Of a stretch of DNA of 64,000 bases, positions 1,330-29,489 are shown in pieces. This stretch comes from a virus. Below the pieces are notes generated by a model. That model saw only the letters and a list, made by a program, of their open reading frames with translations, did not search any database and had not been told where the DNA came from. Within the stretch, counting starts at the first letter, position 1. Every line of letters starts with the position of its first letter. The translations under genes were made by a program, and so were the position numbers. Location of the stretch: IMG/VR virus record IMGVR_UViG_3300036846_000743, positions 124,001 to 188,000 of that record; one strand, written 5' to 3'.

Positions 1330-1339
1330 AGGGCCCTCC

Positions 1340-2470
1340 TTACTTGGGGTGCGGCTGTACCAGTTGCTGTCCAGCGACGCGGCCCAGCGATCCAGCCAGG
1401 CTGGGTAATTGCGGCGGGGACGGCTCTGCCGGCTTCTCGGGCTTCGCCGGCTTGCCATCGGTCGGCGTCATGAGCCGGTTCCAGACGGCCATCTGATTGG
1501 CCTTGATCCGGTTCAGGAATTGGTCGGCCGCCTGGCCGACACTGGCGTGCTTCTCTTTCTTCGCCGGCTCCTCGTCTGGTTCCTTCCTGGCCCCGAACGC
1601 ACGGTGCCAGATCGACGGCTTCGGCCGCATGATCGGTGTCGGCATCGGGATCGCCATGATCGGGCTCGGGGCCTGCTCGGCAATCTGGGCCTGCCGCCGC
1701 TTCACTGCCTCCTCGACGGCCTTGTCCTCGGCCGTTGATCTGGCCCAGTGATAACCACCCAGGCCGGCACCCAGCATGAGGCCGCCGCCCAGCGTCAGGG
1801 CACCACCCATAAGCGGACCGTACCAGCCTTCTGCCTGCTTCTCGTAGAGACTGGCCAGCACATCGAGCGAGCTGGGCTTCGGATCTGCCGAAGCCAGCTT
1901 GCGCCGGCCGGCCAGCGCACTCTCGTAGCCCTTGCGCGCCTCTTCCAGCTCACTCTCCTGCTCGGCCGTCCGGGTCTTGTCGAGCAGATAGTCAGTCAGC
2001 TTCCAGCCGCCATAGCCACCGGCGCCGACGGCTGCGACGCCAGCCGGAATGGCCCATGGCATGTCCAACGGACTTTTCGCGCCCCAGCCCCCCAGCCAGT
2101 TCTGGGCCGTATTCGCCACCTGACCGGGCCGACGAAGCAGACCCATCCAGTCGGCCACATGCCGCATGTCAAAAGCCAGCTTGGCGAACTCGGCCTCCTT
2201 CTCCTCTGTCGCTGCGAGCATGGCATCTCGCTCCGCAGGAGTGCGGACTGCGACCGGCACCGGAATTCGCACGAACGACTGGCGCATCGGAGTCCGCGCC
2301 GGGCCGCCCAGGTTGCGACCCAGGAAGTTGCCGACACCGGACATGGCTCGCGATCCGGCCCCGAGCGCCGTTGCTCCAAGGCCCAGCCCGATGATGGTGC
2401 GAAGCGCATCCACCTGGGCCTGGTTGTTGGGGCCAAGTCCCGTGCGGCCGAACAGATCGTCTATGGACAT
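1340..2470 (-). CDS. Putative virion or membrane protein with two glycine-rich hydrophobic segments
   Basis: A 376-aa protein I cannot assign to a named family. Hydrophobic glycine/alanine-rich stretches lie near residues 25-55, 140-160 (AVGAGGYGGWKL) and 215-240 (GGALTLGGGLMLGAGLGGY), which look like membrane-inserting glycine zippers. Between them is a charged helical stretch rich in Glu, Arg and Lys, and the C-terminus is proline/lysine-rich. It contains several K-x-A elements (RKLASAD, EKQAEGW, EKHASVG) that recur in the other long proteins of this window. AAGGAGG sits upstream of the ATG. Its stop codon overlaps the SD of the polymerase gene, so the two are probably cotranslated. A virion internal or injection protein is inferred from these shared features only. 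Confidence 0.75.
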   Translation of the reverse strand: MSIDDLFGRTGLGPNNQAQVDALRTIIGLGLGATALGAGSRAMSGVGNFLGRNLGGPARTPMRQSFVRIPVPVAVRTPAERDAMLAATEEKEAEFAKLAFDMRHVADWMGLLRRPGQVANTAQNWLGGWGAKSPLDMPWAIPAGVAAVGAGGYGGWKLTDYLLDKTRTAEQESELEEARKGYESALAGRRKLASADPKPSSLDVLASLYEKQAEGWYGPLMGGALTLGGGLMLGAGLGGYHWARSTAEDKAVEEAVKRRQAQIAEQAPSPIMAIPMPTPIMRPKPSIWHRAFGARKEPDEEPAKKEKHASVGQAADQFLNRIKANQMAVWNRLMTPTDGKPAKPEKPAEPSPPQLPSLAGSLGRVAGQQLVQPHPK

Positions 2471-10680: not shown

Positions 10681-13600
10681 TCAGCCGAAGAGACTCCAGG
10701 GCCGCTGATAGCCTGGCGACCCTACTCTGCGAAGAACTTCCCGGAATTGTTCGTTGAGTTCTTCTTTTCGCTCGGACATCCGCTCGAGCACCTCGTCGGC
10801 TGATGGCCGGGGCTTCTCGCCGAACACCTTGCCGAGCCAACCGGGCGGCGGCATCTTTGCAACAAACCGCTGTATCTTCACGTGTCGTAATTCCTCGGGC
10901 AAGCCTTCATGGCTGTCGAACCGCAGCCCGCGGCCGCGCGCCTGGCCAAGTCTGGCCTCATTCCAGTGCGGATCGAGTAGCTGGATCAGCTGGGTGCCCT
11001 TGGCCGAGATTCCCTCGGCGGCGGCTGGCCCCAGCAGGAGCACCCGGCTCCGGCCCGAGTTGTAGTCATCCAGCGCTTTCTTGCGGGCCTCTTCGGGCAT
11101 GCTGCCGTGGAATTGCCCGAACGGGATCTTGGCCTCAGCCAGGCCGGCGGCATAAGGCGTCAAGCCGGCGTCGATGAAGTTCGAATAGATAATGGCCTTG
11201 GCTCTCGGATCTTTCGCCAGAGTTTCTTGGAGATGGCTCATGGCCGACTGGAGCTTGGACGACGTCTGGAACGCCCGGATCGGGTCGTGCGACGAGTGAT
11301 ACGGATAGAGTGATAACGCAGCCTGACGTGGCCCCGTCATGAAGGCAGACAGATGGCCGATCTCCTGCTTGGTGAGCGGATAGTCGTTGGACAGCTTCCA
11401 GCGCATGAGCCAGGGGAGCTTGCCCCACATCAGCTTGTAGAAGTCCTGCTGCTCGGAGCCCATGTCGACTTCGACCCGCTCGTCCTTGGTCGAGACCCCT
11501 TCGGGAGTCCGGGACGGCTGATAGTCCACGTGCCCTTCGAGCATGCGCTCCAGGTCTTCCTCGTTCTGGATCTTGGGCACCTTGACCGGTTTGACGCCCT
11601 GGAGCCAGCCGAAGAACCCGGGATTGACCGTCTCGTTGCCAACATACTTCTTGGTGAACGCGCCCGGACTCATCTCCTCGCCGCGCAGGATCGATAGCGG
11701 CACGGCCAGATCACTGGGTGCGTTCACGATGGGCGTGCCCGAAAGCAAGATCCGGTGCGGGGCTCGCATGCCCAGCTCCATCGCGGCCCGGGCACCGGCC
11801 GACTGCGGGTTCCGGATCCGCTGAACTTCGTCCATGATGACGGTGTTCGGCGTGACCGATGGCTGCTTACCCATGCCAATCCCAGTATATGACATCACGT
11901 TGGTCGGTGTAGACTGATCAGTAAATTTACCTAATTCCTTGAGGTAATTACCTCTGAGGCTCGCCGGCACGACAGCTGTGAATGGCCCGCCGGTCTCCTC
12001 GGCGGCAGCCAGGCTGGCCAAGGACTTTCCTGAGCCCAGACCATGGTAGACCAGCAGGTTCTGGCCCTCGCCGACCCGTTTGGCCACGCGTTCCTGCTGG
12101 GGCTGGAGCCGGACCCAGGGCAGCAGGTCGGCCCGCTTCTCGCCCCAACTGTGACCACACCTGTTGCACTTACCGTCGTCCGGATCGCGCTCGAGCCGGG
12201 CATGGCACTTCGGGCAGCACTCGCCGGCCGGACACGGGTCGCCCTTCTCGTCGGTGGGGCTGCCGACGGCCCGGGCCCAGGCAGCAGCCTTCGCAGGCAA
12301 AAGCCTGATCCTGGACTTGTCGATCGGGTCTCCCTTCGGGGCCTTCTCTCCGTTATAGACCACGGCATCCAGGTCTTCCGGTGTCACGCGCACGGCCCTG
12401 ATATGACTCAGTCCCTCATCGATGTGCCGGGACAGGCGGTGCCGGCCATCCCAGAGCGTACCATCGATGCCAACCAGAATTGGCTTGTTCATGTTGACGG
12501 CAGCGTATCGCTTCTTCGAATAGCCAGTGCTTGCCGACCGGTTGGGCTTCTCGATGTCGCCCAGGGGAATGTTCTCGACCTTGCGCCCGGCCGTACGGCT
12601 GACCAGGTCATCGATGTCGTAGGTCTTGCCGCCCCTGCTGACGGTGTTGGTGCGAACCCAGTCGGCGACCTTGAGCCGACCACCGACCATGGCGAGGGAA
12701 GCATGGATCCTGAAGCCCGTCGGCTTGTGAGTCAGGCCGGCCATGTCCCGGATGGTCGAGTCGATCTTGAACTCACTGGGGCGCTCGTGGATCAGCCTGG
12801 AGAGGATCTGGTACTTGGCACGGTAATTCTTCCGGTCACTCTCGGCCTTGGCCAGCTTCAGGTCGGCCAGGGCCGGATGCACCTTGGCGGTCTTCTCTTC
12901 CTCTTCTTCGATCTGCTGGATGACCTCGGGGATGATCGCATTGGGTTTGCCCAAGAGCGATCCCTGGATCGCGTCCCACCATGATGGGGCCGGCGGCGGC
13001 AGCCGGCGACGACTGCGCGGGGTGACAACAGGAGGTGGCGGATCAGTGATCCCGAGCAGCCCGGCCAGCTTCAGCGTCGCAGCAGTGTCAGCATGGCTGG
13101 CCACCTTGTTGATGTCTTCGTGCAGGCCCAGGAACGACGGCACCCGCAGGGCGCCTGATGGCAGCTTCTGCTGCGCGCGGACCCGGGCCACCCGGCCGAT
13201 ATAAGCCGACGGGTCCCTGGCGATGTCGGCCAGGGTCTCGTCGCTGAAGCCCGTGCCAACCCGGCCCACGGTCTTGCCCGGCTCATGGCCGTAGGTCAGG
13301 CCGCCCACAGTCGCAGCCCGCTGGCCTTCGCCCGGAAAAGTCCCGGTGACGTGTACATCGTGTTCCTCGAAGAGCTTGGCCTTCGAGGGCACGCCGGTTC
13401 TGGGATGATAGACAATTCCCTCTTCGGTAAGAGGATGTTCACCCGATCGGATCATGTCCCAGAGCTTGGTTGCGCTTGCTGGATCTCTGAATTCCTCGGA
13501 GACGTGGAACTTATCTGAAGGCAGGTGTCCAGCAATCTCTTCAAGCATTCGCCGACGATCTGATCGGGATGTAACGGCGGGATCGATGGGCTTCTTGCCG

Positions 13601-16600
13601 TACTGCTGAACGTCGTAGAGCATGTTGCGAAGCGTGAGGCCCTTTGCCTTCTGGAGCTGGAGACTGCGCGCAATACTGGAATTAAGTAGCTGGCCGACAT
13701 CCTGGGGACCGGTTCGGCGAGTTGTGACTTCAGGATCGCCTGGAAGGCCAGCAGCCCCGCTGCCACGCGGTGTTCCGTTGGCGTGTACCGTTTCCAGCCC
13801 TTCATGGCCCGTACCCACATCCGGACCACCATCAGGCGATCTTCGTCCAGTCTCCGTATCCGGTTGCGTTGCCTTACTTCCTCCTCCTGGTTGTAGTCGT
13901 GAGGCATACAGCTCGCCCTTCAAGATCGATCCTTCGAGGTGCCTGGGGACCGGGACCTCGGGGCGCCCGCCAAACAGGCGTTCCGTGTGGAAGATGGGCC
14001 GGCCGGTTGTCTTCGACGTCCTGAAGGATAACGCCTCGGCATGACCGCCTGCTAGTCTGATGAGCTGACTGGCGCCATCGACCTTGGCTTCTACCGTGTC
14101 GCCTTCCTGCATAGCTTTCAGGGCTGGCTCGACATCTTCGGGCGCGATCTTCTTGTAGCGAACTTTTTCGTAAGGGACCTGGTCCCGAGGGGTCGTGTTC
14201 ATGAGCAGCCAGTTCTTGTTGCCCCAGCCCTTGGGCCGGACCAGCGTGAACCGCTCGGGATGTCTCTGATGGGCCGTCGTGAAGTGTATTGACTCAGGAG
14301 TGGCTTTCGTGATCAGGATCTGGCCCTTGGTATGGGTCTTGACCGTGCCCTTGCCGTAGCCCTGGGGAATTTCTCCCTCGAAATTCCCGTACTCATGCCG
14401 ATGCACGGGCTGCTGCACGGCAAGATGTCGTTCCCCCGGTGGGGGTACTCCCTTGCGCGCGGCCCAGGAGAGCAGGCCCATGTCCGGGTTGCCGAACCTG
14501 ATGTCATGATGAAGACCCGCGCGCTCGGCTTCGTGCCTTTGCACTATGTAGTCCAGCATCTGGCCAACCTGGAGCTTATCAAGCTGGCCCATGTTGGACC
14601 TGGACGGCAGCCCGGGAGCGTAGTCGGCTTCGGCCTTCTTGCCCAGCTGGTAAGCCAGCGCCGGCGCTGCGACGCCACCAGCGATCATGCCGAGCATCGA
14701 CATGAGATTGCGGCGGCGCTCCTGCCGGCGCCGCTCGTAGTAGTCAAGCTCATCCTCGTCGTCGGGCGACACGACCCCGCCCAGCGCGCCGCCGAGCAAG
14801 TGACCACCCAGGAGGCCGGCGCCAGCGGCCCCGGCCAGGGTCAAGACCCGGTTGCGGATCTCGGGATCGGCCCAGCTCTCGCGTACCCCTGCCCACATGC
14901 CGGCCTGGGTTGCCGGCCGCGCCGCCGCCAAGAAGTCGGCTGGCCTGGGCGACCCGGCCGCCCTGGCAGCCACCGCGATGGGATCCTGCGATAGCGCCGC
15001 TCCGGGGCCAAGGCCCAGCCAGCTGCGGGCCTGCTGCTGTACCGTGTTGGCCGTCTGTCTGGCGATCTGGGACTGCATCTCCGGGCGGCTCGCGATATCG
15101 ACGGCCATGCTCTGGAACTCGGGCTTCTGGGCCATCTCGAGCAGCTTTGCTTGCAGCGCCGGATTGTTTGCCGCCTGCGAGATAACTTTCTGCCCTTCCG
15201 GAGTGCTGGCGAAGTTCGTGAGCGCCTGCACGACTTCGGGCTTCTGGGCCATCTCGCCCAGCACTTTCTGTCCCTCCGGGGTGCTGGCATAGTTCGTGAG
15301 CGCTCCCGTGACTTCGGGCTTCTGGGCCATCTCGCCCAGTGTTTTTCGCCCTTCCGGAGTACCGACATACTTCGTGAGTGCCCCTACGACTTCGGGCTTC
15401 TGGGCCAGCCCGCTTATGGTCTTCTGTCCCTCCGGGGTACCAACATACTTCGTGAGTGCCCCCATGACTTTGGGCTGCTGCGCCAACCCGCCCAGCGCCT
15501 TCTGTCCCTCCGGGGTACCGGCGTAGTTGCCAATGGCCTCCGTAACTGCGGGCTGCTGCGCCAGCCCGCCCAGTGTCTTCTGTCCCTCCGGAGTACTGGC
15601 GAAGTTGGTGATGGCCTCTGTAACTTCGGGCCGCTGGAAGAACCCGCCTATGGTCTTCTGCCCCTCTGGGGTGTTGGCGTAATTGGTGATGGCCCCCATG
15701 ACTTCGGGCTTCTGGAAGAGCCCGCCTATGGTTTTCTGCCCTTCTGGAGTGCTGGCATAATTCGTGATCGCTTTCGTGACTTCGGGCTGATCAGCCAGTC
15801 CAGCCAAGGTCTTTTGCATATCCGGATTGGTCAAGGACTGGGTAAACGCTTTCTGTACTGCTGGGTTGGCCGCGGTATTCGCAAGGAACTGCTGCATCTT
15901 GGGATCGTTCAGGGTCTGCGACAGCATCGCCTGGCCCTGGGGATTGTTCAGCTGCTCCCCGATGAACTTCTGCGTCTCGGGACTGGTCACAAGCTGTTGC
16001 ACGCCCTTCTGGACAACCGGACTATCCATCACGTGCTGCCGCATCCGGGGATCGGTGAGTGTCCGGGTGAGCGGCTGAACGATCGGGCTGGTCATGCTGG
16101 CAATCGGGTTGGCCTTCATCTCGGGCGTGTACTTGGCTATGGCCTCATCGACAGCCTTCTGGTAAATGGGCGCGGGATCCTCCTTCATGGGGATGAACTG
16201 GCCGGCCGCACTCATCGCGAGACCGAACGGCGAGGCCAGCCGGGCAGCATCCACGAAGCCCATGGTATTGGGATACTTCTGGCGCGCCGTGTAATAGTCG
16301 TGCCGCAGGAACGGGATCGTGGACTTGGCAGCCACGTCGCCCACCATCTTGCCGATGGCCGACTCGTCGGGCTTGCCGGTAACCCAGCTCACTCCCGGAA
16401 TATTCCGGGAAGCCCAGCTCACTCCTGGAATTCTGTGCAGCAGCTGGGTTGCCACCGGGCCGCGCAGGCCCCGCAGTTCCTCCTTGGCCCACGGCTGCTT
16501 CAACTCCTTGATGCCTGCTTCCGACAATCCCAGCCCCCTGCCCAGCATGGTCGCTTCCTGGCTCTCGAAGACCGGCTGCGTCGCCATGTTGTAGCCGGCC

Positions 16601-19600
16601 AGGCCCAGGCCAGTACCGGTCGCAGCAGTGCTCCCGTAACGCAGCGTCTGGCCCAGCGCCTGCCGCTGCCAGTCCCAGCGACGCTGCGGTGGCTGCGGGG
16701 CAGGGTTATTCAGGAGCTTACTCCACGGAGTAGTCGCAGCTTGCGGAACGCCACCTTTCGGGATGGGGACTTTGGGAGTGACTTCCCGGTGCAGGCCCGG
16801 GATCTGCGGGCTGAAGGTGAACCTGGCAGCATTGCCGGCGCCGATAAGAGGGCGCTTCCAGCCCTCGCCACTCACGCCCCAGAACTGACCCGGCGCCGCG
16901 CCGGACATGTGATACGCGCCACGGCCTATGGCACCAAGGCCCCCCTTGGCCCGTGACCACAGTCCTCCCGCCTCCTTGGTCATCGCCACCTTGAGATTGG
17001 GATCAATCCTGGCGACGTTGTGAACGAGCCCCGGCATCCGCCTGGTCGCAGCACCCTCGATAACCTGCCAGTCCGGCGCTGCAAACATATCCTTCCAGTA
17101 CTGCTCGTCGTCACCAAGGTTGCTCGGATTCAGGGTGTTCCACCATGAGTTGACGTGGCCCTTGAACCAGTCCAGCGCCTTCTTGGCCTCGGCCGGCGAT
17201 GTCACTTCCCTGCCGGTGTTCTGGGCATATACCCGCTTGACGAGGGCCAGCCGGGGATCAAGCTCGTCGGGCGAAAAGAGATAGTTCAGGTTATGTTTCG
17301 GTCCGAATGACGGCGTACCGCCCAGCGTCTTGACCAGCTTCTGCCCCGACGACGTGATCTCCGGATCAATCTTCGCGAGATTGGCCAGCTCCTTGGCCGT
17401 GCCTCCACGCTCAAGGACCCGCTTGATCGGCGCCATCTGCATTCCCGAGTGCGTCAGCTCGTGCCCCACGGTTTGCTGCTGATCGTGCACATTGACCAGG
17501 CTGTCCTTCGGCATCGTGATGACTGCCGGTGGCGCTGCTGGCCTGTTGACCATAGGCGTGGTCACGCCGGCGTAAGTCTCGTTTTCCGCGCCCGGTATCG
17601 CGATCCCTTTAGGGAGCTTGACGGTCTTCCCGGGCACCTCGACGACCGGTACCTTGGTGTGAAGATCCTCAGCCTTCCAGGGAACCGAGGGGATCGACGG
17701 AGCATAGGGCACCTGCTTGCCTTCCGCTCGCCGGATGACCCCTTCGACACCGCCCTCCATCTTCCCGTAATACGGATCGAGGCTCTCGGCCAGGCTCTTC
17801 ATCTTCGCCCCGGGAGGTACCACGTAAGGCGCATCCGGCGCGGGAGCTACAGGCGGCTGCTGCTGTTGCTGCTGCTGTAGCCGCTGTGCCTTGGCCCTGC
17901 CGATGTAGTAGGCCCCGCCCAGGCCACCCAGACCGGCGCCGTAGATCACGTCGCGTAACGGGTCTTCGCTGCCGAAGAGCTTCCCGAGCCCCCAGCCGCC
18001 CAGGCCGCCGGCACCAGCGCCGATCAGCATCGGAGCATAGTCCTTGAAGTCGCCTTGCTTCTCGCCAAGCCGGGCCAGCCAGCCGACCGCGCGGCCCCTG
18101 TCACCGCGCTGCCGCAGCCGATCCATGAACTCGACCAAAGGATCGCTATCTTCGCCATCTTCGTCATCATCTTCGCCAGCGCCGTCTGGCTTGGGGAAGG
18201 ATATCCGGGTGATGGAGATTCGCTGTATCGAGATCGGTATCCTGATCTTACGTCCGCCGTTATCTTCGCCATTATGTACATCGTCGCTAGCCCCACTGTG
18301 TACATCTTCGTCATCATCTTCGCCGTCGGTGGTTGTAGCTACTTTGGCTATCGAGACGGTATTCCCAGCATCTCCTCGACCGTCCAGCCATTGTGCAACC
18401 GATCGTAGAGGGTGCTCACGGGAATACCCAGCTGCGATGCCCATTGACCGATTGTCTGTTTCTTTCCGTGGAAGGAGAACTGGCGCCGTGGCTGCTTTGG
18501 TCGTGAAAGCGGTATTCCCCGTGACAATCGATAAGTCACGTGTGCCCGCGAGCAACCCAGCAGACGAGCTGCGTCCGCCGTACTCATCTTCTGGCCGTCG
18601 AATTCGACCCAGTGAGTCGTCCGTCGGGGCCGACCACGTGGCGTTAGAATTGCCTCCTCGTCTGTCCAGCCGAGCCTCACTATGCGTCCGCGGAGTACCG
18701 TCGGATGCAAGCCAGTCCGTTCGGCCCACTCGGCGATCGTCCGAGTCTCGCCCTGGCATGTCAGCAGCCGATTGGTTCGCGTATTTCGTGCTTGCGCTTT
18801 CCGTGATGCCCAAATGCAGTTTGCTTTGGAATAGCCCTTGCTGTTTTCCTTTCGCTCGAGGGTCATTCCCGCCGGCCGATCTCCCATGTCCCGGTAGAAC
18901 GCCATGAAGCGCCGCTGCCAACTTTGACACACCGTAATTCCGCGCCCGCCATAATTCTTGTAACCGCGGCTCGTCGGATTCAGACAACGCTCCTTCATCT
19001 TGCACCAAGTCGTGTACGCTCGCGTCTTGACCAGACCGTGATACTGCCGTTTGATCATTGGCCGCCTTGCTGACTTCGTTAGGTTTGAGAACATTGCGAC
19101 GTCTTACACCTATAGTGATGTGAAATTCATGATCACCATTGGGCAAAGGAGTCAGACCATAGCTCTTCCGCAGGGCCTTGAGATCGGAAGAGCTAACCCG
19201 TACAAACCACGCCTTGGACATCTCGGGCCAGCCCTTGGGTTCGACTTCCATGATCGGTCCAAGTTGATAACTGAACGGATGACCACGTTCACTTATCTTG
19301 TCAGGACCACCGATCTTTTTGACATCCTGATCGGTGAGGGCGCTAATATGGGCGTTGAGCACGCCGTCTCGCAGCGGCAATTCAGCGCCTGGCGCTTCGA
19401 GCGCATCGAATAATCCCCTAACAAGTGCATTGGGGACGCTGACCAAACCCCAGCCGCTCGCACTGACATATAACCGACCATGGAGTATGGGTACCGCCAC
19501 CGGGGCGCCGCCTGCCTTGATCAACATACCGTAAGCTGCGGCGACCTGGTAATAGTCCAGGTCTTCGGCTGCCCGGCGGCGAGCCAGTGTGGCCGGATCG

Positions 19601-19614
19601 ATCGTGAGCGACAT
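10681..19614 (-). CDS. Giant multi-enzyme protein: 2H phosphoesterase, HExxH protease, repeats, LigD-type phosphoesterase and ligase, ParB-like, SNF2 helicase
   Basis: A single open frame of 2977 codons; ATG after AAGGAGG. Visible parts in order: residues 1-170 carry two H-x-S/T motifs (HIS 89-91, HIT 165-167), as in 2H phosphoesterases. Residues about 175-422 are read through an embedded HNH gene. Acidic linkers follow (428-496), then glycine zipper plus poly-Gln (525-585). HELTH at 718-722 is an HExxH zinc-protease motif. Eight 26-aa repeats lie at about 1277-1484, and a second Gly-rich membrane region at 1588-1665. A LigD-type 3'-phosphoesterase domain (about 1685-1808) has VQRHEAERAGLHHDIRF and FEGEIPQG. 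An ATP-dependent ligase has EAKVDG (Lys1844), KGELYA, EEGIVYH and KAKLF. Then come ParB-like DGTLWDGRHRLS (about 2385), a four-Cys zinc ribbon (2458-2487) and SNF2 with GLGSGKS, DEVQ, SGTP and QARGRGLR (about 2520-2905). An injected, possibly processed virion polyprotein is inference. Confidence 0.85.
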   Translation of the reverse strand: MSLTIDPATLARRRAAEDLDYYQVAAAYGMLIKAGGAPVAVPILHGRLYVSASGWGLVSVPNALVRGLFDALEAPGAELPLRDGVLNAHISALTDQDVKKIGGPDKISERGHPFSYQLGPIMEVEPKGWPEMSKAWFVRVSSSDLKALRKSYGLTPLPNGDHEFHITIGVRRRNVLKPNEVSKAANDQTAVSRSGQDASVHDLVQDEGALSESDEPRLQELWRARNYGVSKLAAALHGVLPGHGRSAGGNDPRAKGKQQGLFQSKLHLGITESASTKYANQSAADMPGRDSDDRRVGRTDWLASDGTPRTHSEARLDRRGGNSNATWSAPTDDSLGRIRRPEDEYGGRSSSAGLLAGTRDLSIVTGNTAFTTKAATAPVLLPRKETDNRSMGIAAGYSREHPLRSVAQWLDGRGDAGNTVSIAKVATTTDGEDDDEDVHSGASDDVHNGEDNGGRKIRIPISIQRISITRISFPKPDGAGEDDDEDGEDSDPLVEFMDRLRQRGDRGRAVGWLARLGEKQGDFKDYAPMLIGAGAGGLGGWGLGKLFGSEDPLRDVIYGAGLGGLGGAYYIGRAKAQRLQQQQQQQPPVAPAPDAPYVVPPGAKMKSLAESLDPYYGKMEGGVEGVIRRAEGKQVPYAPSIPSVPWKAEDLHTKVPVVEVPGKTVKLPKGIAIPGAENETYAGVTTPMVNRPAAPPAVITMPKDSLVNVHDQQQTVGHELTHSGMQMAPIKRVLERGGTAKELANLAKIDPEITSSGQKLVKTLGGTPSFGPKHNLNYLFSPDELDPRLALVKRVYAQNTGREVTSPAEAKKALDWFKGHVNSWWNTLNPSNLGDDEQYWKDMFAAPDWQVIEGAATRRMPGLVHNVARIDPNLKVAMTKEAGGLWSRAKGGLGAIGRGAYHMSGAAPGQFWGVSGEGWKRPLIGAGNAARFTFSPQIPGLHREVTPKVPIPKGGVPQAATTPWSKLLNNPAPQPPQRRWDWQRQALGQTLRYGSTAATGTGLGLAGYNMATQPVFESQEATMLGRGLGLSEAGIKELKQPWAKEELRGLRGPVATQLLHRIPGVSWASRNIPGVSWVTGKPDESAIGKMVGDVAAKSTIPFLRHDYYTARQKYPNTMGFVDAARLASPFGLAMSAAGQFIPMKEDPAPIYQKAVDEAIAKYTPEMKANPIASMTSPIVQPLTRTLTDPRMRQHVMDSPVVQKGVQQLVTSPETQKFIGEQLNNPQGQAMLSQTLNDPKMQQFLANTAANPAVQKAFTQSLTNPDMQKTLAGLADQPEVTKAITNYASTPEGQKTIGGLFQKPEVMGAITNYANTPEGQKTIGGFFQRPEVTEAITNFASTPEGQKTLGGLAQQPAVTEAIGNYAGTPEGQKALGGLAQQPKVMGALTKYVGTPEGQKTISGLAQKPEVVGALTKYVGTPEGRKTLGEMAQKPEVTGALTNYASTPEGQKVLGEMAQKPEVVQALTNFASTPEGQKVISQAANNPALQAKLLEMAQKPEFQSMAVDIASRPEMQSQIARQTANTVQQQARSWLGLGPGAALSQDPIAVAARAAGSPRPADFLAAARPATQAGMWAGVRESWADPEIRNRVLTLAGAAGAGLLGGHLLGGALGGVVSPDDEDELDYYERRRQERRRNLMSMLGMIAGGVAAPALAYQLGKKAEADYAPGLPSRSNMGQLDKLQVGQMLDYIVQRHEAERAGLHHDIRFGNPDMGLLSWAARKGVPPPGERHLAVQQPVHRHEYGNFEGEIPQGYGKGTVKTHTKGQILITKATPESIHFTTAHQRHPERFTLVRPKGWGNKNWLLMNTTPRDQVPYEKVRYKKIAPEDVEPALKAMQEGDTVEAKVDGASQLIRLAGGHAEALSFRTSKTTGRPIFHTERLFGGRPEVPVPRHLEGSILKGELYASRLQPGGGSKATQPDTETGRRSPDGGPDVGTGHEGLETVHANGTPRGSGAAGLPGDPEVTTRRTGPQDVGQLLNSSIARSLQLQKAKGLTLRNMLYDVQQYGKKPIDPAVTSRSDRRRMLEEIAGHLPSDKFHVSEEFRDPASATKLWDMIRSGEHPLTEEGIVYHPRTGVPSKAKLFEEHDVHVTGTFPGEGQRAATVGGLTYGHEPGKTVGRVGTGFSDETLADIARDPSAYIGRVARVRAQQKLPSGALRVPSFLGLHEDINKVASHADTAATLKLAGLLGITDPPPPVVTPRSRRRLPPPAPSWWDAIQGSLLGKPNAIIPEVIQQIEEEEEKTAKVHPALADLKLAKAESDRKNYRAKYQILSRLIHERPSEFKIDSTIRDMAGLTHKPTGFRIHASLAMVGGRLKVADWVRTNTVSRGGKTYDIDDLVSRTAGRKVENIPLGDIEKPNRSASTGYSKKRYAAVNMNKPILVGIDGTLWDGRHRLSRHIDEGLSHIRAVRVTPEDLDAVVYNGEKAPKGDPIDKSRIRLLPAKAAAWARAVGSPTDEKGDPCPAGECCPKCHARLERDPDDGKCNRCGHSWGEKRADLLPWVRLQPQQERVAKRVGEGQNLLVYHGLGSGKSLASLAAAEETGGPFTAVVPASLRGNYLKELGKFTDQSTPTNVMSYTGIGMGKQPSVTPNTVIMDEVQRIRNPQSAGARAAMELGMRAPHRILLSGTPIVNAPSDLAVPLSILRGEEMSPGAFTKKYVGNETVNPGFFGWLQGVKPVKVPKIQNEEDLERMLEGHVDYQPSRTPEGVSTKDERVEVDMGSEQQDFYKLMWGKLPWLMRWKLSNDYPLTKQEIGHLSAFMTGPRQAALSLYPYHSSHDPIRAFQTSSKLQSAMSHLQETLAKDPRAKAIIYSNFIDAGLTPYAAGLAEAKIPFGQFHGSMPEEARKKALDDYNSGRSRVLLLGPAAAEGISAKGTQLIQLLDPHWNEARLGQARGRGLRFDSHEGLPEELRHVKIQRFVAKMPPPGWLGKVFGEKPRPSADEVLERMSERKEELNEQFREVLRRVGSPGYQRPWSLFG
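15161..15784 (-). repeat. Eight tandem 78-bp (26-aa) repeats inside the giant gene
   Basis: The unit is 78 bases, in frame with the giant protein, and recurs eight times with about 70-90% identity. Each unit encodes P-E-V, a short helix (AITNYA or ALTKYV), the invariant TPEGQK, then a hydrophobic GG or GE pair and AQKP. Degenerate units extend on both sides. Uniform length and conserved helix positions suggest an alpha-helical solenoid or rod, possibly a length-setting or spacer element. Third-position differences between units show the array is not a very recent expansion. Confidence 0.85.
18348..19094 (-). CDS. HNH-type homing endonuclease with three NUMOD-like repeats, embedded in the giant gene
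   Basis: A 248-aa protein in a different frame from the giant gene that spans it. Residues about 25-95 have the phage HNH-endonuclease pattern: KMKERCLNPTS, NYGGRGITVCQSW, FYRDMGDRP, LERKENSKGYSKANCIW. The remaining 150 residues hold three related DNA-binding units, each with a G-x-x-x-T-I or D-A-A helix-turn-helix (TIAEWAERTGL, STADAARLLGC, TIGQWASQLGI) and two with GW-E-A/M-L endings. The start lies right after the 2H-phosphoesterase domain codons and the stop right before the acidic linker. There is thus no room for a self-splicing intron. The region is more AT-rich than its surroundings, consistent with invasion. The SD is weak (AGGTG). Confidence 0.85.
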   Translation of the reverse strand: MFSNLTKSARRPMIKRQYHGLVKTRAYTTWCKMKERCLNPTSRGYKNYGGRGITVCQSWQRRFMAFYRDMGDRPAGMTLERKENSKGYSKANCIWASRKAQARNTRTNRLLTCQGETRTIAEWAERTGLHPTVLRGRIVRLGWTDEEAILTPRGRPRRTTHWVEFDGQKMSTADAARLLGCSRAHVTYRLSRGIPLSRPKQPRRQFSFHGKKQTIGQWASQLGIPVSTLYDRLHNGWTVEEMLGIPSR

Positions 19615-21423: not shown

Positions 21424-23736
21424 TCACTCCAGAAGCGCCTTGGCCCCTTCGGGCGAATAGAGCCCGGGCGGACAGAGATCATTGTCGATCGTGTCCCGCA
21501 TGTGGCGGGGGCCATTATCGATGCGGTCCTTCACGTAGCTCCAGACGGCCAGCGGGGTACAGAACTCCTGGAAAAACAACCAGGCGTTATGCCCGATAGC
21601 AGCAGCTTCCTCGCGGTTCCGCTCGCACCAGTTGACCAGCTCCGGGATGTCCATGTAGTCCTGCCGGCACATCAGGTAGTGCACGTTGGGCTGGAGCAGG
21701 CCGTCGCAGCACTGATCGATCATGTAGGGCGAGATCGTGGGAATTCCCAGTCCCATCATCTGGAGCTGGCCCCGATCGAGGATATTCTCCCAGGAGCCCG
21801 GGACCTGGATATAGCACAGAGCGTTCACGGCTTTGGCGTGCCAGGTCTGGGCATCGGTGAACTCGAAGTCCATGCGATCGCCGAAGTAGTGGGCGAGCAT
21901 TCCCTGGACCATGAACCGGCGGCGCGCACGGCTGTCCTTGAACCCGTGCGTGTACTGGTTGTTCATGATCACGCTGGCCGTCATGGGATTGCGCCGCTCG
22001 CGCACCTGGCGCTGGATCCGGTCGTAATAGGCCCAGTCCATGAAGGTCGCTGGCGGAAAAGAACCTGCCCACGGATAGGCTTTGTAGCTGGAATGAAAAT
22101 GCATCCGGAGCCAGTGCTTGTGGTCGGCGGCGCCGGCCCTGATGATGTTCCAGTCGCCGTAGTCGACGACCACCTCGACGCCGTCCACCAGGCAGGGGAA
22201 ACTTGACCAATCTATAGGTTTCAAGTCTTCAGACTCCCGGACCACGGTCTTCACGGACGGGTCCACCCGGATCGGCGGGAATGCGCGCAGCGAGTTCCGG
22301 CCTTTCGGCTTCTCGCCGTCCAGCCGCCAGACGTCATCGGCAATCCCCCTGGCCAGCTTGACCACGAAGCCAACCAGGGCGTTATAGGCCCACTCGATGT
22401 AGTAAGCCTTGAGGCTGGCATCGGTCGGGAAGATGATCTCCTTGGGCAAGGTCCGGGGCTTGGCGGGATCCACGATCGGGAATACGTAGGGCTCGTAGTC
22501 CTTGGGATGCGGGCTCAACGGGTCCAGGGCCAGTTCCGGCGCTGCGAATCGCGACTGGATCGTACCGCACTGGGCAATCCGGGTCTTGACGTCTTCCGGG
22601 TAGTCCCACCCGGCAGCCACCTCTTCGAGATAATTGGCCCAGCGCTCGCACATGGCCGTGGCAGTCCAGTGCTTCCAGGCAGCTGCCTGCATCTTGGTCA
22701 GGATCGGGTTTGACCTGCCGTCCGCGGCGCGCTGGATCTGCTCGGCGGCCTCGTCCGCGTCGGTATCGTCCCCGTCGGCCGGCTGAAAGTTGACCTTCCA
22801 GCCGATCGGTCCCAACTCTTCTTCCATCTCGGGAATGGCACCGACTGAGGTGTGCACCAGGGGCAGCCCGGCAAAGAACGACTCCTTGACCGTCAGGCTG
22901 TCGGCCTCGCGGCGCGACAGATGCACCATGCAATCGGCCCCGGCCAGCGCATCACCGACGAACGGGATCGGTGGCAGGAACTTCACGCGGCCCTCGACGC
23001 CCAGCTCACGAACCAGCTCGACCAGGTCCGGCATCGGCTCCTCGGGCTTGTGCGCCTGGTTGCCGATCAGGATGAGCTTGTAATTACCGGGGAGCTTCGC
23101 CAGGGCGCGCACGGCTGCGTGCGGGTTCTTGACCGTGGCCTGACGGCCCAGGTAGAGCAGGACCTTGTCATCGGCCCCGACGCCCCACTGCTCACGCTGC
23201 CAGACGCGGCCCTTGCGCGGGCACGCCCGGTCAACCTCGATGCCGTTGGGTATAACGCGCACCGGGAACTGATCGGCATTGGGGGCGGCCGTGAAGAACT
23301 TGCAGGCAGCCTGCGAGACGCCCACTAGGTGAGTGACCCCGTTGATCTCCTGGTGCCACGGTTCGGAGCAGTGCGACACGCAGATCACCGGGATCGGCAC
23401 CCCGGCGGTGAACCGGGCCAGCGACAGCGAGCCCCAGGCAATAAGGGCATGCGCCGTGGAGCAGACATACTTGACCGCGTCGATCAGGGATTCGTAGTGC
23501 GTATCAACCTTGGGCCACTTGGACTTGGGCCACCGTCCCCACTGGGTATCCCCGTGCAGCGTGGTGTATCTGAGCATGTCGCAGCCCAGGTTCTCGTCGA
23601 GGCCGGCATGTCCCGCGACGGCAACGCCCGAGCAGGTTACCCTCGAGAGATCACTGTAGCGTAGCTGGATCAGGATGGTCCGCTCAGCGCCGCCAGGTTG
23701 CGCCAAGCTCGGGGTCAAGGCGGCAAAACGGATCAT
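21424..23736 (-). CDS. Bifunctional glycosyltransferase: GT4 (GT-B) domain fused to a GT90-like domain
   Basis: A 770-aa protein. Residues 1-380 form a GT-B enzyme: GGAERTI near residue 16, VIPNGIEVDRA near 162, LLYLGRQATVKNPHAA (GT4 beta-strand plus R/K) near 192, and the donor-site ESFFAGLPLVHTSVGAIPE around 290-310 (E-x7-E-like pattern). Residues about 420-770 match the adjacent 358-aa protein and look GT90/CAP10-like (CCDGLLQPNVHYLMCRQDY). One polypeptide could thus add two sugars in sequence. No membrane segment is present, so a soluble cytoplasmic enzyme is expected. The start follows at the end of the 1277-aa structural gene. Confidence 0.85.
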   Translation of the reverse strand: MIRFAALTPSLAQPGGAERTILIQLRYSDLSRVTCSGVAVAGHAGLDENLGCDMLRYTTLHGDTQWGRWPKSKWPKVDTHYESLIDAVKYVCSTAHALIAWGSLSLARFTAGVPIPVICVSHCSEPWHQEINGVTHLVGVSQAACKFFTAAPNADQFPVRVIPNGIEVDRACPRKGRVWQREQWGVGADDKVLLYLGRQATVKNPHAAVRALAKLPGNYKLILIGNQAHKPEEPMPDLVELVRELGVEGRVKFLPPIPFVGDALAGADCMVHLSRREADSLTVKESFFAGLPLVHTSVGAIPEMEEELGPIGWKVNFQPADGDDTDADEAAEQIQRAADGRSNPILTKMQAAAWKHWTATAMCERWANYLEEVAAGWDYPEDVKTRIAQCGTIQSRFAAPELALDPLSPHPKDYEPYVFPIVDPAKPRTLPKEIIFPTDASLKAYYIEWAYNALVGFVVKLARGIADDVWRLDGEKPKGRNSLRAFPPIRVDPSVKTVVRESEDLKPIDWSSFPCLVDGVEVVVDYGDWNIIRAGAADHKHWLRMHFHSSYKAYPWAGSFPPATFMDWAYYDRIQRQVRERRNPMTASVIMNNQYTHGFKDSRARRRFMVQGMLAHYFGDRMDFEFTDAQTWHAKAVNALCYIQVPGSWENILDRGQLQMMGLGIPTISPYMIDQCCDGLLQPNVHYLMCRQDYMDIPELVNWCERNREEAAAIGHNAWLFFQEFCTPLAVWSYVKDRIDNGPRHMRDTIDNDLCPPGLYSPEGAKALLE

Positions 23737-23751
23737 CCATACCAGCCTTTC

Positions 23752-26700
23752 TCACTGTGCTTGGGCAGCCTCGACAACCTGGAGCAGATCATAAACGTCG
23801 GCCGGCGTGAGCGTCGGGTTCCCGACCGCATCCTGCACCATCTTGGTGGCTGCGGCCGGGTCTTGCTGCCATTTGCTTCGCACGGCGTTGAATTTTGTTG
23901 TGAGCGGTATCCTGCCACTCCAGATGCCACCCTTCGCCGCGTCTTCGGCTAGCATGCTCTTCACGCGCTGGGTTTTGTCAGCCATCGGCAGGGCCCTAAG
24001 ATTGGCCACGGTCGCCGGATCTTTGAACGAGTCCATGGTGATCTCGTCAGGAACCGTCGCTGTGGCTTGCGCCGGGGCCACTGGGGCTGCCGGTTCTGCC
24101 GCCGCTGGTGCTGGCGCAGGTGCTGCCGGAGCTGCCGGAGCTGTCGGAGCTGTCGGAGCTGTCGGCGTGGCTGCTGGTGTTGTGGCTGGAGCTGTCGGTG
24201 CTGGCGCAGGTGCCGCTGGCGCTCCTGTTGGAGCCGGAACCGCCGGGGTCGTTGCCGGCGCCGCTGGCACTCCGGCTGCGGCTGCTCCTGCCGCCCCTGC
24301 GCCCGCTCCTGTCGCTGCCGTTCCCGGTGGCGGCTTGAGGGCCCCCGCCTGGGTACCACCTGCGGCGAGATGGCTCAGGCCGAACCCGCTCAAGATGTTA
24401 TTGATCAGATCCTGCACACCGCCGGGCAGCATGTTCCCCTGGTGCAACCCGCCGATGACGCCGGCGCCACCCAGAAGCGTCATCAGCATCGAGCCCATGC
24501 CGCCTTCGCCCATGAACGAGTTCATGAGCCCGAAGAGAGCTACTGGCAAACCGAGACCGACCATCAGCTGGCCAGCCGTGCCCAGGCCGTCCCACATGCC
24601 CTTGACGGCCGAGATCGGGTCGGGATACTCACCTGCCTCGGTCTTCTGCTTGGCCTCATCGGCTAGCCCTGTCTGCGGGTTCTGGACGGCCTTGGCCATT
24701 CCCTGCGGTCCCGTGTTCTGCTCCTTCATCGCCTGCATGTTGCCGTAATACGGCTCCTGCTGGGCCTTCAGCAGCAGGAATGACTGCGAGGCATTGTGGG
24801 CCGCATCCGTGGCCTGGGCAGGGTCGACGCCGGCCTTCTGCATGGCCACCATATCCTCCGGAGTCAGCGGCTCCTGCTGCGTGATCCGCATCGATGTCTC
24901 CGGAGGCAGCTTCTTAGCCATGATCTCGAGTGTCTCGTTAGCCTGCCGGTTCACGTGGCCCACACCCTCCGCACGACCTGGCGAACTCATCCACTTTCTC
25001 GTATCCGTGGGATTGTAGTCCGGACCGGAAAGATCGATCTTGCCCTTCGCCTGCATCCCGGGCACTGTTTTGTCGACGAAATTCTTCCGCTGCGCAGTAT
25101 ATTGGTTGATCACCTCGCTCCGGACCGTCTTTTCGGTCTGAGCGATCTGCTCCGGGGTCAACGGTACGCCCGTGTTGATCAGAGATTGCTCGTTGGCGGC
25201 ATTGACCCGTCCCTGCGCGATCTGGCCTGCATAGGTGCCCCACTGCTCCATGTCCAGGCCGGCCGGCGTCGGCCCTTTGCCCAGCCGCTGGTCCTCCTGC
25301 ATCCGTTCCACCTGGCGGGCCGTCATGTTGCCCTTTCCCGGCGTCAATCCCTCCATCATGGCGCCCCATGTTGCAAAGCCGCCCGGCACGGATAGCTCGG
25401 GAATGGCTTTCGCCGCCTGTATCGCCCGGCTGAGCATCGGAATACGGCCGAGCAGCCCCGCCGCGGCCGGGGCGGCAGCGCCGGCCTCACCAGCCGCAGC
25501 ACCACCTCCTGCACCGCCCAGGCGACTGTAGCCCGCAATGTTGGCGATCAGGTCGTACTGCTTCGCCAGATCCGAAGCGCCCCCGGCAATGTATTGCATC
25601 GGAGTCGATGTGCCCGGAGCTGTCGCATAGTCTTCGAGATTCTTGGACCAGCGCGGCATGACCTGGCCCGAGAAGCTGAGCCCGCCCGGCCTCGCAGCTC
25701 GCGCATCCTGGGGGCCATAAGCCGCAAACGGGATCGACGCGAAGTCCCGCCAGGCCGACCGGGAATTCGTCAGGCTCGGGTCCATGTTGTAAAGGTCGGA
25801 GGCTGCGCCAAGGACCTGACCGTAGAGCGCAGGATAAGTCTTGGTCAGCACGTTCTTGGTAGTCCCGAGCGCATAGCTCTGGAGCGTCGGATCGTTCTGT
25901 GCCGACGAAAAATTCAGGCGCTGTGCCAGCGCCGGGTTCATGCCTTCATTGATCCGCTTGGCCATCAGCTCCTGGTCGGTCTTGACGCCGGAAACCGTGG
26001 GCATCCACTGCGTGGTACCCATTTCCTTGCCGAGGGCTTCGGTGGCCGCATCGAGGACCTCTTGCTGGCGAGCATCACGGAGATTGCGCATCTCCAGCTG
26101 ACCCGGAACCGGCCGATTGGCCCCGGCCACACCAGCCGCTTCACCCCCGGCCGGTTCCGCAGCCAAGACCCTCTGGTAGTTGGCGCGGGCATCGACTTGC
26201 TCCTCCGGAGAGAGACCAGGGGTGCTCAGAGCGCGGCTGGCCTCATCAACCTGCTTCTGCCACATCCGGCGCATCACGATATCCCTGTTGGAGGGCGCCC
26301 TCGCCATGTCCTTCTGGATCTGGGTCATGCCGGCATAAGGGTCGACGGGCGGTGCCGGAGCCGCAGCCGCAGCCGGTTCCGGTGCCGCAGCCGGTGCCAC
26401 GGCCCTGGCGCCCGGCGTGGCTGCTGCCACCGATGCTGGCGGTGCCACTCCTGGTGCTGGTGCCTGCGGCGGCACCGGCGCCTTGGGCGCCGCTGTTCCG
26501 GTCACGCCCGGCACAGGGGGTATGCCCTGTGCCGCGGTCTGCGGCGTAGCCTGCTGACCAGCCCGCTGCGCCGCGGCTGCGGCATCTTCCGCGCCGCCGC
26601 CAGTACTCTGAAGTGGATTGACCTTGACCTTCTTGATCGGGTCCTGGGCGGCCTTGGTCAATCCCGACGTGGCTCCGGCCTCAAGCCCCGCCGCACCGAC

Positions 26701-27585
26701 GAAAAAACGTGTCCACTCGTCGGCGATATCATCGGAGAGAGCCGCACACTTCTCGACAGCCATCCGGACCTCCGTGCCGGTAAGACCTCGCTCACCGCAG
26801 CGCGCCAGGAAGCCGATCTGGATCGGGAACTCGGCCGCCAGCTTGACCATGGCCGCCTTGGGATGCATGCCCTCCAGGAGCGCCTGCTCTTCCTCTTCCT
26901 GCTCGCGATCACGCTTGTTCTTGTACCACAGGCCCAGCCCGCCCAGGCCCAGACCAATCCCGAGCGCAGGCAGATAATGCTTCGGCTGCACGAGCCAGTC
27001 CCGGCCCTTGCCGACTGTGCTTGCGAATTGGTCCATGACCCCCGGCACCTTGGGAGTGGGATTGACGGCTGCATCCGTGGCAGCCCGCTGCGCCGCTTCC
27101 TCCTGGAGCTTCTTGTAGCCGGCCCGAATTTTCATGTCGGCATTTTCACCGCCTCCGACAATCGCGTTCCAGGCTTCGCCAGCATGAGTCTTTTCAGCGA
27201 TCTGGTTGCCGGCAGTTCGAAAGGCTTCCGGCAGCGCACTCCCGATCTCACGAACCGCGCGCGGCGCATCGGCGATGCCCTGGCCAAGCTGCCGGAACGA
27301 CTGTGCCGCCGTGTTGTAGGCTTGCGGCATCCTGGGACCAACCGCGCTGCCCAGCGCGGTACCGGCTTCCGGCACCCCGAACAGGTAACTCCCGCCGAGT
27401 GCGCCACCCAGGGCGGCACCTCCGAGCGCGCCGGTCGTCCGACGGTTTCGCTGTATCCAGGGACTGGGCTTTGACCAGGCCCCCAGCCGCCGCATCCAGC
27501 CAGGAGCGGCAGACTTGACCATGCCGTCCGCGGCCAGGACATTCCAGGCCGATGCATAAGGGCGAGGACACGTCATGACGCTCAT
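23752..27585 (-). CDS. Large virion-type protein with glycine zippers and Ala/Pro linkers
   Basis: A 1277-aa protein that I do not recognise by family. Residues 50-70 and 200-222 (LPALGIGLGLGGLGLW) are Gly-rich hydrophobic segments. Residues about 247-275 contain KLAAEF..GFLARCGERGLT..AVEKCAA, the module also seen in the protein at 2894-3337. Residues 345-415 are an Ala/Pro linker. A long helical central region (about 415-1000) follows, then a hydrophobic part (GTAGQLMVGLGLPVALFGLMNSF), another Ala/Pro linker (about 1085-1180) and a short C-terminal helical domain. K-x-A elements recur. The size and alternating membrane and helical parts suggest a tape-measure-like or internal injection protein. 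Confidence 0.75.
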   Translation of the reverse strand: MSVMTCPRPYASAWNVLAADGMVKSAAPGWMRRLGAWSKPSPWIQRNRRTTGALGGAALGGALGGSYLFGVPEAGTALGSAVGPRMPQAYNTAAQSFRQLGQGIADAPRAVREIGSALPEAFRTAGNQIAEKTHAGEAWNAIVGGGENADMKIRAGYKKLQEEAAQRAATDAAVNPTPKVPGVMDQFASTVGKGRDWLVQPKHYLPALGIGLGLGGLGLWYKNKRDREQEEEEQALLEGMHPKAAMVKLAAEFPIQIGFLARCGERGLTGTEVRMAVEKCAALSDDIADEWTRFFVGAAGLEAGATSGLTKAAQDPIKKVKVNPLQSTGGGAEDAAAAAQRAGQQATPQTAAQGIPPVPGVTGTAAPKAPVPPQAPAPGVAPPASVAAATPGARAVAPAAAPEPAAAAAPAPPVDPYAGMTQIQKDMARAPSNRDIVMRRMWQKQVDEASRALSTPGLSPEEQVDARANYQRVLAAEPAGGEAAGVAGANRPVPGQLEMRNLRDARQQEVLDAATEALGKEMGTTQWMPTVSGVKTDQELMAKRINEGMNPALAQRLNFSSAQNDPTLQSYALGTTKNVLTKTYPALYGQVLGAASDLYNMDPSLTNSRSAWRDFASIPFAAYGPQDARAARPGGLSFSGQVMPRWSKNLEDYATAPGTSTPMQYIAGGASDLAKQYDLIANIAGYSRLGGAGGGAAAGEAGAAAPAAAGLLGRIPMLSRAIQAAKAIPELSVPGGFATWGAMMEGLTPGKGNMTARQVERMQEDQRLGKGPTPAGLDMEQWGTYAGQIAQGRVNAANEQSLINTGVPLTPEQIAQTEKTVRSEVINQYTAQRKNFVDKTVPGMQAKGKIDLSGPDYNPTDTRKWMSSPGRAEGVGHVNRQANETLEIMAKKLPPETSMRITQQEPLTPEDMVAMQKAGVDPAQATDAAHNASQSFLLLKAQQEPYYGNMQAMKEQNTGPQGMAKAVQNPQTGLADEAKQKTEAGEYPDPISAVKGMWDGLGTAGQLMVGLGLPVALFGLMNSFMGEGGMGSMLMTLLGGAGVIGGLHQGNMLPGGVQDLINNILSGFGLSHLAAGGTQAGALKPPPGTAATGAGAGAAGAAAAGVPAAPATTPAVPAPTGAPAAPAPAPTAPATTPAATPTAPTAPTAPAAPAAPAPAPAAAEPAAPVAPAQATATVPDEITMDSFKDPATVANLRALPMADKTQRVKSMLAEDAAKGGIWSGRIPLTTKFNAVRSKWQQDPAAATKMVQDAVGNPTLTPADVYDLLQVVEAAQAQ
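24070..24335 (-). repeat. Degenerate Ala/Pro/Thr-coding repeats (low complexity)
   Basis: Within the 1277-aa gene, short repeats built from GCTGTCGGAG- and GCTGGTG-type units encode APAP, TAPT and PAAP runs. On the plus strand the block appears as a run of gctg/tcgg. It forms a flexible linker between the hydrophobic segment and the C-terminal domain. Such tracts are prone to slippage and to assembly error. Confidence 0.6.
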
Positions 27586-27621
27586 GGAACCTCCTTGTCT
27601 CTGAGCTAACCGGATACGCGA

Positions 27622-27843
27622 TCACCCACCAGGATGCAACTTGGCCCTGACCGCGGCGTCCTTGGCTTCCAGGAGCTTCCTGAGCGCCACGGTCCGCTCA
27701 GGCCCTGACTCTATCTGCGCACAAATGATCTGCGCCAGGTTCGAGAAGCACGACGATACTTCCTGGAGATGCTTTGGAAGGTGAGCGAACTCGAACCACT
27801 TCAGCATGCGGTCAGGTTGGTCAGGCATTATTTCCTCCGGCAT
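27622..27843 (-). CDS. Small helical-hairpin phage protein, possible Acb2/Tad1-hairpin relative
   Basis: A 73-aa protein of a family common in tailed phages. The pattern is W-F-E-F-A-H-L-P-x-H-L-Q-E-V-S, then S-x-L-A-x-x-I, and near the end GPERTVALRKLLEAKDAAVRA. Two helices separated by a short turn are expected. The terminal block (R-x-V-A-x-x-x-L-x-x-x-x-x-A-x-x-R-A) resembles the hairpin of Acb2/Tad1 proteins, which sequester cyclic nucleotide signals of CBASS and Thoeris defence. That link comes from memory of family patterns and is not certain. It overlaps the next glycosyltransferase gene by one base. Confidence 0.6.
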   Translation of the reverse strand: MPEEIMPDQPDRMLKWFEFAHLPKHLQEVSSCFSNLAQIICAQIESGPERTVALRKLLEAKDAAVRAKLHPGG

Positions 27844-28766
27844 CAGCTTACCGTATCGGCGGTCGCAACGGAATCAGCCGGGGCCTCCTCGAGCACGGGC
27901 TGGATCTTCGAGACGGGCGCCAGCCTGTTGTACCGCACCAGCAGCTGGGGCTGGCTCGAGATATGCGGCCATTGGATCTCGGAGGCATAGTGCACACACA
28001 GGGCGTCGCCGCAGGCTTCGTGAATTCGAGACTGGGCAGCCGGCATCCGCAGGCAGATCCACTGCTCCTCGTGCACATGGGGCGGGCAGATCCCCCGCCA
28101 GATGACGAAGTCGCGGCCGAACCAGCTGAGCAGATTGGCATCATTATGCTCGCCGGCGCCAAAGACATGCCGGCCCAGAGCTGTCCAGGGCCTTAGCAGG
28201 GCTTCCTGGTTGCCGCCGTGGGCAATCGCTTCGGCCGTCTGGAGAATGGCCTCGTGCGCAGCCAGCCCGGCCGGGAATGACTGCCGGTTGGTGCGGTGAT
28301 TGATCGCATAGCTGATCGGAAACCCCGGATTGAAAGCCCCGTGCTTCTGGTGCAGGTGCATGAACCTGGAGCTATTCACGATGTTCCCGTAGACCAGATA
28401 CGCATCCGGATACCGGACCCGGTGCGCCAGCAGCTTCTCGAGACAGCCCTCGACCATCCAGACGACATCGTCGTCGATGCGGATATAGATCGTCCGGGTG
28501 TCGATCGCGAACACGTAGAACCGGCCGATGGTCATGGCCCGATGCCAGTAGTTCATCGGCCCTGGCAGCGAGATCGTGCGATAGAACTCAGGGGCAGCGC
28601 GCTCCAGGCCCCGGAAGTATTCCTGGTCTTGCTGGTCCGGCGTGTTCAGCCACCAGTGGAATTCGTCCACGGCCGGCCGTGCCAGCTCGACGTGCCGGCG
28701 CATCAGGTCGGCCACGTGGCGCCGGCCTGCTGGACACACGACAACAACTCGGTAGCCCTCGAACAT
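27843..28766 (-). CDS. GT-A type glycosyltransferase, 307 aa
   Basis: A Rossmann-like N-terminus (EGYRVVVVCPAGR) is followed by a metal-binding DDD at residues 98-100 in IYIRIDDDVVWM, the DxD-type site of GT-A enzymes. Later blocks (FGAGEHNDANLLSWFG, HVHEEQWICLRMP) have conserved-looking His and Asp residues that may shape the acceptor site. There is no membrane helix. It lies in a five-gene glycosyltransferase cluster, sharing TGATG junctions with both neighbours, so it is almost certainly coexpressed with them. Confidence 0.75.
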   Translation of the reverse strand: MFEGYRVVVVCPAGRRHVADLMRRHVELARPAVDEFHWWLNTPDQQDQEYFRGLERAAPEFYRTISLPGPMNYWHRAMTIGRFYVFAIDTRTIYIRIDDDVVWMVEGCLEKLLAHRVRYPDAYLVYGNIVNSSRFMHLHQKHGAFNPGFPISYAINHRTNRQSFPAGLAAHEAILQTAEAIAHGGNQEALLRPWTALGRHVFGAGEHNDANLLSWFGRDFVIWRGICPPHVHEEQWICLRMPAAQSRIHEACGDALCVHYASEIQWPHISSQPQLLVRYNRLAPVSKIQPVLEEAPADSVATADTVS

Positions 28767-29488: not shown

Positions 29489-29489
29489 G

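Follow-up and report, generated by a model that had tools for sequence, protein, structure and literature searches.

A probable phage polyvalent protein carrying a LigD-type phosphoesterase-ligase, and an endonuclease gene hidden in another of its frames

Polyvalent proteins are multi-enzyme polypeptides of phages and plasmids, encoded near virion genes and thought to enter with the DNA, whose domains include SNF2, ParB, 2H, metallopeptidase and InPase, the last being a polyvalent domain specific to phages (PMC5512222). The term "LigD" is absent from the main text of that study. A second point of reference is Salmonella phage Arash, in whose virions proteomics detected RNA polymerase beta most strongly (3516 spectra, with 1210 for beta') and also found the helicase gp217 (38 unique peptides, 1148 spectra), the authors also considering a carry-over of abundant enzymes into virion preparations (PMC10585845). 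A third is the ShiLan domain, an arrangement with an out-of-frame HNH gene that was described in 2025 (PMC11855218).

Here, a single large gene was analysed within a window of 64,000 bases (the whole stretch under analysis), which corresponds to bases 124001-188000 of a 226,073-base IMG/VR virus record, nearly all likely genes of this record being located on the strand of this gene.

The giant frame and its modules

The frame proposed by the first-pass annotation exists, and runs on the minus strand from an ATG at position 19614 to a stop at position 10681 (2977 codons; product designated P0001). Since its phosphoesterase-ligase and SNF2 parts are under purifying selection (dN/dS 0.06-0.13), and given the homology of the encoded protein, a chance open reading frame is ruled out. 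Domain searches of P0001 were performed with Pfam, PHROGs and PDB profiles. The models of the local profile searches were built from 1 to 5 sequences each. The following features are listed in the direction of transcription, ending with the neighbouring polymerase genes:

10681-19614, minus strand: giant gene, 2977 aa (P0001)
19087-19614, minus strand: 2H phosphoesterase region, residues 1-176 (alignment; Pfam 2H-SAK at residues 82-175, E = 3.2e-8, above the cut-off)
18348-19094, minus strand: hidden gene for a 248-aa HNH homing endonuclease, same strand but a different frame (homologues; codon shuffles)
18304-19068, minus strand: insert of the giant frame, residues ~183-437 (gap at the equivalent place in the relative L003, from alignment blocks)
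17974-18030, minus strand: glycine-rich hydrophobic segment, one of three, residues 529-547 (hydropathy 1.05)
16984-17811, minus strand: HExxH region, a possible zincin protease (conserved with L003; motif HELTH at 17449-17463)
15070-16065, minus strand: about 25 tandem 13-residue repeats (GerD-like by Pfam)
14236-14541, minus strand: LigD-type 3'-phosphoesterase (PE) domain (Pfam LigD_N at residues 1692-1793, E = 4.8e-12; PDB 3p4h, 1.5e-14)
13114-14103, minus strand: ATP-dependent DNA ligase, nucleotidyltransferase and OB domain (phrog_114, 1.2e-14; PDB 2cfm, 1.5e-5)
12664-12864, minus strand: "DLK" module, a recurrent phage module of ~65 residues (recurrence in relatives)
12307-12663, minus strand: ParB/Srx-like domain by motif (DGRHRL), corresponding to phrog_17560
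12130-12240, minus strand: zinc ribbon CPxGECCPKC...CNRCGH (cysteines conserved in three sequences)
10729-12114, minus strand: SNF2 helicase/translocase with all core motifs (phrog_62, 2.7e-29; SNF2/Helicase_C match at about residues 2494-2901)
1-1458, minus strand: start of the RNA polymerase gene cluster, which continues outside the window (record 116389-125458)

The 2H, LigD-type phosphoesterase, ligase and SNF2 modules named in the first-pass annotation were all recovered as profile matches (2H-SAK, LigD_N, phrog_114 and phrog_62, respectively), and P0001 accordingly unites at least two biochemically disparate domains in one polypeptide. The 2H region holds both H-x-[S/T] motifs and yielded no credible match in the PDB profile search. 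In the same search the PE domain fell on solved LigD PE domains and the region following it on ATP-dependent DNA ligases, of which the C-terminal parts were located at residues 1978-2169 by Pfam and PHROGs; the catalytic His/Asp motifs of the PE are kept, and the ligase possesses a KVDG motif together with EG and KxK. An alignment with ten divergent relatives (among which L002 is without the start of the PE) revealed the PE motifs HxA..AGxHxDxR, QPxHxxxY and YGxGxV, as well as the ligase motifs KxDG, GE, EG and KxK, to be near-universal among the covering sequences, and because these motifs are kept both active sites look functional. A polymerase/primase domain of the LigD type was not matched in P0001, and a search with the PE-ligase across bacterial genome contigs returned no match. 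No DNA ligase besides that of P0001 was found in the record, which may be incomplete, a NAD ligase and Ku having been sought there and not found; a Ku-LigD system was rejected, the record being without Ku. The SNF2 module shares 32% identity with gp217 of Salmonella phage Arash and 33% with its counterpart in Pseudanabaena phage PA-SR01, Arash being the nearest named relative for both SNF2 (PA-SR01 being equally close) and RNA polymerase.

The other parts that had been named were retained with reservations. The cysteines of the zinc ribbon are conserved in three sequences, but the corresponding TFIIB-type Pfam match, in L002, is sub-threshold. The HExxH region (residues 602-877, with HELTH at residues 718-722) shares 40-45% identity with the L003 counterpart, in which the motif is intact, whereas no Pfam profile and no credible PDB profile matched it and its predicted structure, derived from a two-sequence alignment, has a pLDDT of 39; it is a possible zincin protease. 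The ParB-like region keeps its DGRHRL-type motif in three sequences, yet Pfam ParB_N did not match, the PDB profile search was without a credible match and the structure predicted from a three-sequence alignment has a pLDDT of 46, so that the ParB/Srx assignment is one of motif-level similarity. The segments described as membrane-type are weak, being glycine-rich and only moderately hydrophobic (top 19-residue mean 1.57). Two features had not been noted in the first-pass annotation, these being the 13-residue repeats (residues ~1184-1515) and the hidden gene described below. The GerD spore protein suggested by Pfam was rejected, because the match sits on the 13-residue repeats and is probably a repeat similarity.

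An endonuclease gene in another frame

The first-pass annotation counted the whole frame as protein proper, but about 250 of its residues correspond to the hidden HNH gene at 18348-19094, read in the frame of the host gene. The hidden gene belongs to an endonuclease family common in phages, and its family name is taken from sequence motifs because Pfam detects helix-turn-helix parts only. The HNH gene entered the linker after the 2H domain of the giant gene. Further hidden HNH genes are present in L002 (1253-1909 and 3224-4045) and in L003 (13970-14632, common to L002 and L003), and the insertion sites of these related inserts differ among the sister genes of the window, L002 and L003. Another one (2932-3591 of L024) lies within a gene of 1028 aa whose PHROG matches are polyvalent-like.

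Over the inserts of the window, L002 and L003 the host frame contains zero stops, with 3 to 14 in each of the four remaining frames. Among 80 endonuclease relatives, the corresponding frame carries 2 to 49 stops in 79, the exception being L024, which is itself nested. For eleven nested cases synonymous codons were re-drawn according to either the phage codon usage or that of the gene itself: the host frame was open in at most 0.3% of the shuffles per case under phage codon usage, and the highest open-frame rate under the gene's own usage was 3.7% (L003a). The L002/L003 pair gives a dN/dS of 0.12 for the endonuclease frame, as opposed to a host frame in which pN exceeds pS, and for this reason the endonuclease is under selection and the host frame is merely maintained stop-free. 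The host-frame peptides of the inserts are too poorly conserved to serve as search queries. The same dN/dS of 0.12 bears indirectly on the activity and homing of the putative endonuclease. Two other explanations of the insert were rejected, namely a protein domain, since host-frame residues vary freely and the hidden frame is constrained, and an intron or intein, for which no Rfam match was obtained and no intein domain was matched in P0001.

Related HNH genes were also observed out of frame in intein-like inserts that interrupt genes for a DNA polymerase or a helicase (L236, L238, L239, L280 and L270), these five intein calls being based on sequence motifs judged by eye. L003 itself has an intein within SNF2 motif II (MDE|C...HN|SQRIRNP; residues 1187-1493 of its P0003), which carries a DUF559-type nuclease ORF (16118-16790) in another frame. 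In addition, the HNH endonuclease has a second homologue in the record, which occupies its own short frame at 193882-194301 (L303).

Origin of the fusion and proposed role

Two relatives, L002 and L003, share the giant-gene architecture with shuffled modules. L002 ends at a contig edge within the gene, and L003 distributes the modules over two genes of 1576 and 1874 aa that are connected by an ATGA overlap, with the 2H and HExxH regions in one and the PE-ligase and SNF2 in the other; the order of the zinc ribbon, ParB-like, DLK and NUDIX modules differs among the window, L002 and L003. A search with SNF2 retrieved 80 loci, mostly representing a stand-alone helicase. Partial fusions comprise SNF2, PE and ligase with a sub-threshold Zn peptidase (L167), InPase (foremost), SNF2, ParB and DLK (L151), InPase, GNAT, PE and ligase (L097), and PE, ligase and NUDIX (L099), InPase PF18823 being fused to direct homologues of the PE-ligase and SNF2-ParB modules (1e-54, 3e-43). 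The search with 2H retrieved 68 loci, in which this domain typically heads a protein of 190-784 aa with NUDIX and DLK modules. Shuffled NUDIX, DUF5661 and DLK modules were seen in the 2H proteins of L310, L338, L329, L317 and L306. The DLK module, which recurs across the gene block, could be a packaging tag.

The gene block of the wider clade has the order SNF2, 2H and RNA polymerase on one strand. SNF2 and 2H are located on the same strand in the 24 contigs (some of them near-duplicates) that contain both, SNF2 being positioned 10-35 kb upstream of 2H in 22 of these, and 2H precedes the RNA polymerase gene by 7.2-8.7 kb in all 20 contigs showing that gene. The giant gene occupies the position of 2H, 9.2 kb before the RNA polymerase gene, and therefore was built from parts of a single gene block: it is a fusion of modules that most relatives hold as separate genes of that block. 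It is followed downstream, on the same strand, by the RNA polymerase genes and then by tail sheath and baseplate genes, which places it, as is typical of polyvalent proteins, in the vicinity of late/virion genes. Three separate pieces encode the RNA polymerase subunits (record 116389-125458; L009 and L010), with matches to phrog_24349 and phrog_25354. A glycosyltransferase-like gene cluster (window 21424-30377, minus strand) lies between the giant gene and a 1573-aa gene (33891-38612) with neither PHROG nor Pfam match.

We favour, with a probability of roughly 0.6, the interpretation of the giant protein as a phage polyvalent protein that is packaged and delivered together with a virion multisubunit RNA polymerase. 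The first-pass annotation had likewise suggested an ejected virion protein that prepares or repairs incoming DNA; we infer the former from the gene position, from the SNF2 relative present in Arash virions (PMC10585845) and from the InPase fusions, and the latter would fit the predicted activities of the PE-ligase and SNF2. The virion helicase of Arash does not prove that the parts fused in the giant protein would be packaged as well. According to the proposed sequence of events, the protein would be made late and packaged in the head; following entry, the HExxH region, if a peptidase, might free the modules. The SNF2 motor, judging from its fold and context, would then travel on the incoming double-stranded DNA and aid the RNA polymerase or remove bound host proteins, while the conserved active sites suggest a LigD-type PE that removes damage from 3' ends and a ligase that closes nicks or connects the genome ends, thereby providing an intact template. 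The 2H domain may remove host cyclic-nucleotide signals or work on RNA ends. More tentatively, these activities could amount to a particle-borne DNA end-healing and ligase machine, covalently attached to an SNF2 motor and entering alongside a virion RNA polymerase, which mends or circularises the genome at entry in a Ku-free manner.

Because no ligase other than that of P0001 was found in the record, an intracellular replication or repair protein acting in DNA synthesis, Okazaki joining and break repair, and not as a virion component, has to be weighed, ligase and helicase being classical replication activities. We consider this unlikely, given that RNA polymerase and tail genes follow the gene on its strand, that the SNF2 relative is abundant in Arash virions, that these modules also occur as fusions with the polyvalent InPase domain, and that topoisomerase, DNA polymerase, primase and helicase families were recognised among the other proteins of the record. 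Still less probable is a frame that simply joins genes with separately working products, the fusion itself being without a special role. The split with ATGA overlap in L003 and the separate genes of most relatives would agree with such a frame, but the fusion recurs, since PE-ligase and SNF2 share one frame in both the window and L002, and L167 joins them in the other order.

A mainly counter-defensive role, in which 2H would destroy nucleotide alarms, SNF2 would strip restriction enzymes and the PE-ligase would mend cuts made by host nucleases, is somewhat doubtful and overlaps with the polyvalent-protein interpretation rather than being exclusive of it. Such roles have been proposed for polyvalent 2H, SNF2 and DarB (PMC5512222), and relatives have NUDIX and 2H companions; on the other hand, no methylase partner was found in P0001 by Pfam, and the steady link is with RNA polymerase rather than with defence genes.

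If the polyvalent-protein interpretation is true, DNA end repair and ligation join counter-defence and transcription among the tools that phages inject, and the giant protein is a natural case of a DNA translocase linked to a ligase on a single chain. Across the clade the same modules can be traced from individual genes up to the giant fusion, and selfish endonuclease genes are seen to enter in a different frame and leave that of their host unbroken.

Comparison with described systems

The first-pass annotation knew of no described protein with this set of modules. The type as such is known from polyvalent proteins (PMC5512222) and the architecture is shared by L002 and L003, but the LigD-type PE-ligase, combining DNA end-healing with a ligase, is new and represents the unusual part. 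As in polyvalent proteins, unrelated enzyme modules reside in one large phage polypeptide encoded near virion genes, and they include SNF2, 2H, ParB-like and possible metallopeptidase modules; the link to the polyvalent domain network consists of the 2H and SNF2 superfamilies and of homologues fused to InPase PF18823. The giant protein differs in its LigD-type PE and DNA ligase, the term "LigD" not appearing in the main text of PMC5512222, and in that the Pfam models of the polyvalent metallopeptidase and of DdrB-type ParB did not match P0001 (E up to 1).

With Arash (PMC10585845) the locus shares homologous SNF2 (32%) and RNA polymerase (30%) proteins, and in that phage, whose RNA polymerase is gp206/gp216, the helicase gene (gp217) adjoins an RNA polymerase gene, with both helicase and polymerase found in virions. 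In contrast to the giant protein, gp217 is a stand-alone helicase encoded by a 1419-base gene, with no fused PE-ligase, 2H or repeats. The catalytic residues of the PE, the ligase motifs and the order of PE followed by ligase are those of bacterial LigD, whereas the giant protein is without the polymerase domain and is fused to 2H, repeats and SNF2, and it is encoded by a phage gene in a record without recognisable Ku, unlike LigD systems.

The hidden gene resembles the ShiLan arrangement (PMC11855218) in being an out-of-frame HNH gene within a stop-free insert of a host gene with signs of neither intein nor intron. The host gene encodes a methylase in the case of ShiLan and a probable virion giant protein here, where, also unlike ShiLan, the hidden gene starts with ATG, several insertion sites are used among sister genes, and related HNH genes are additionally located out of frame inside intein-like inserts.
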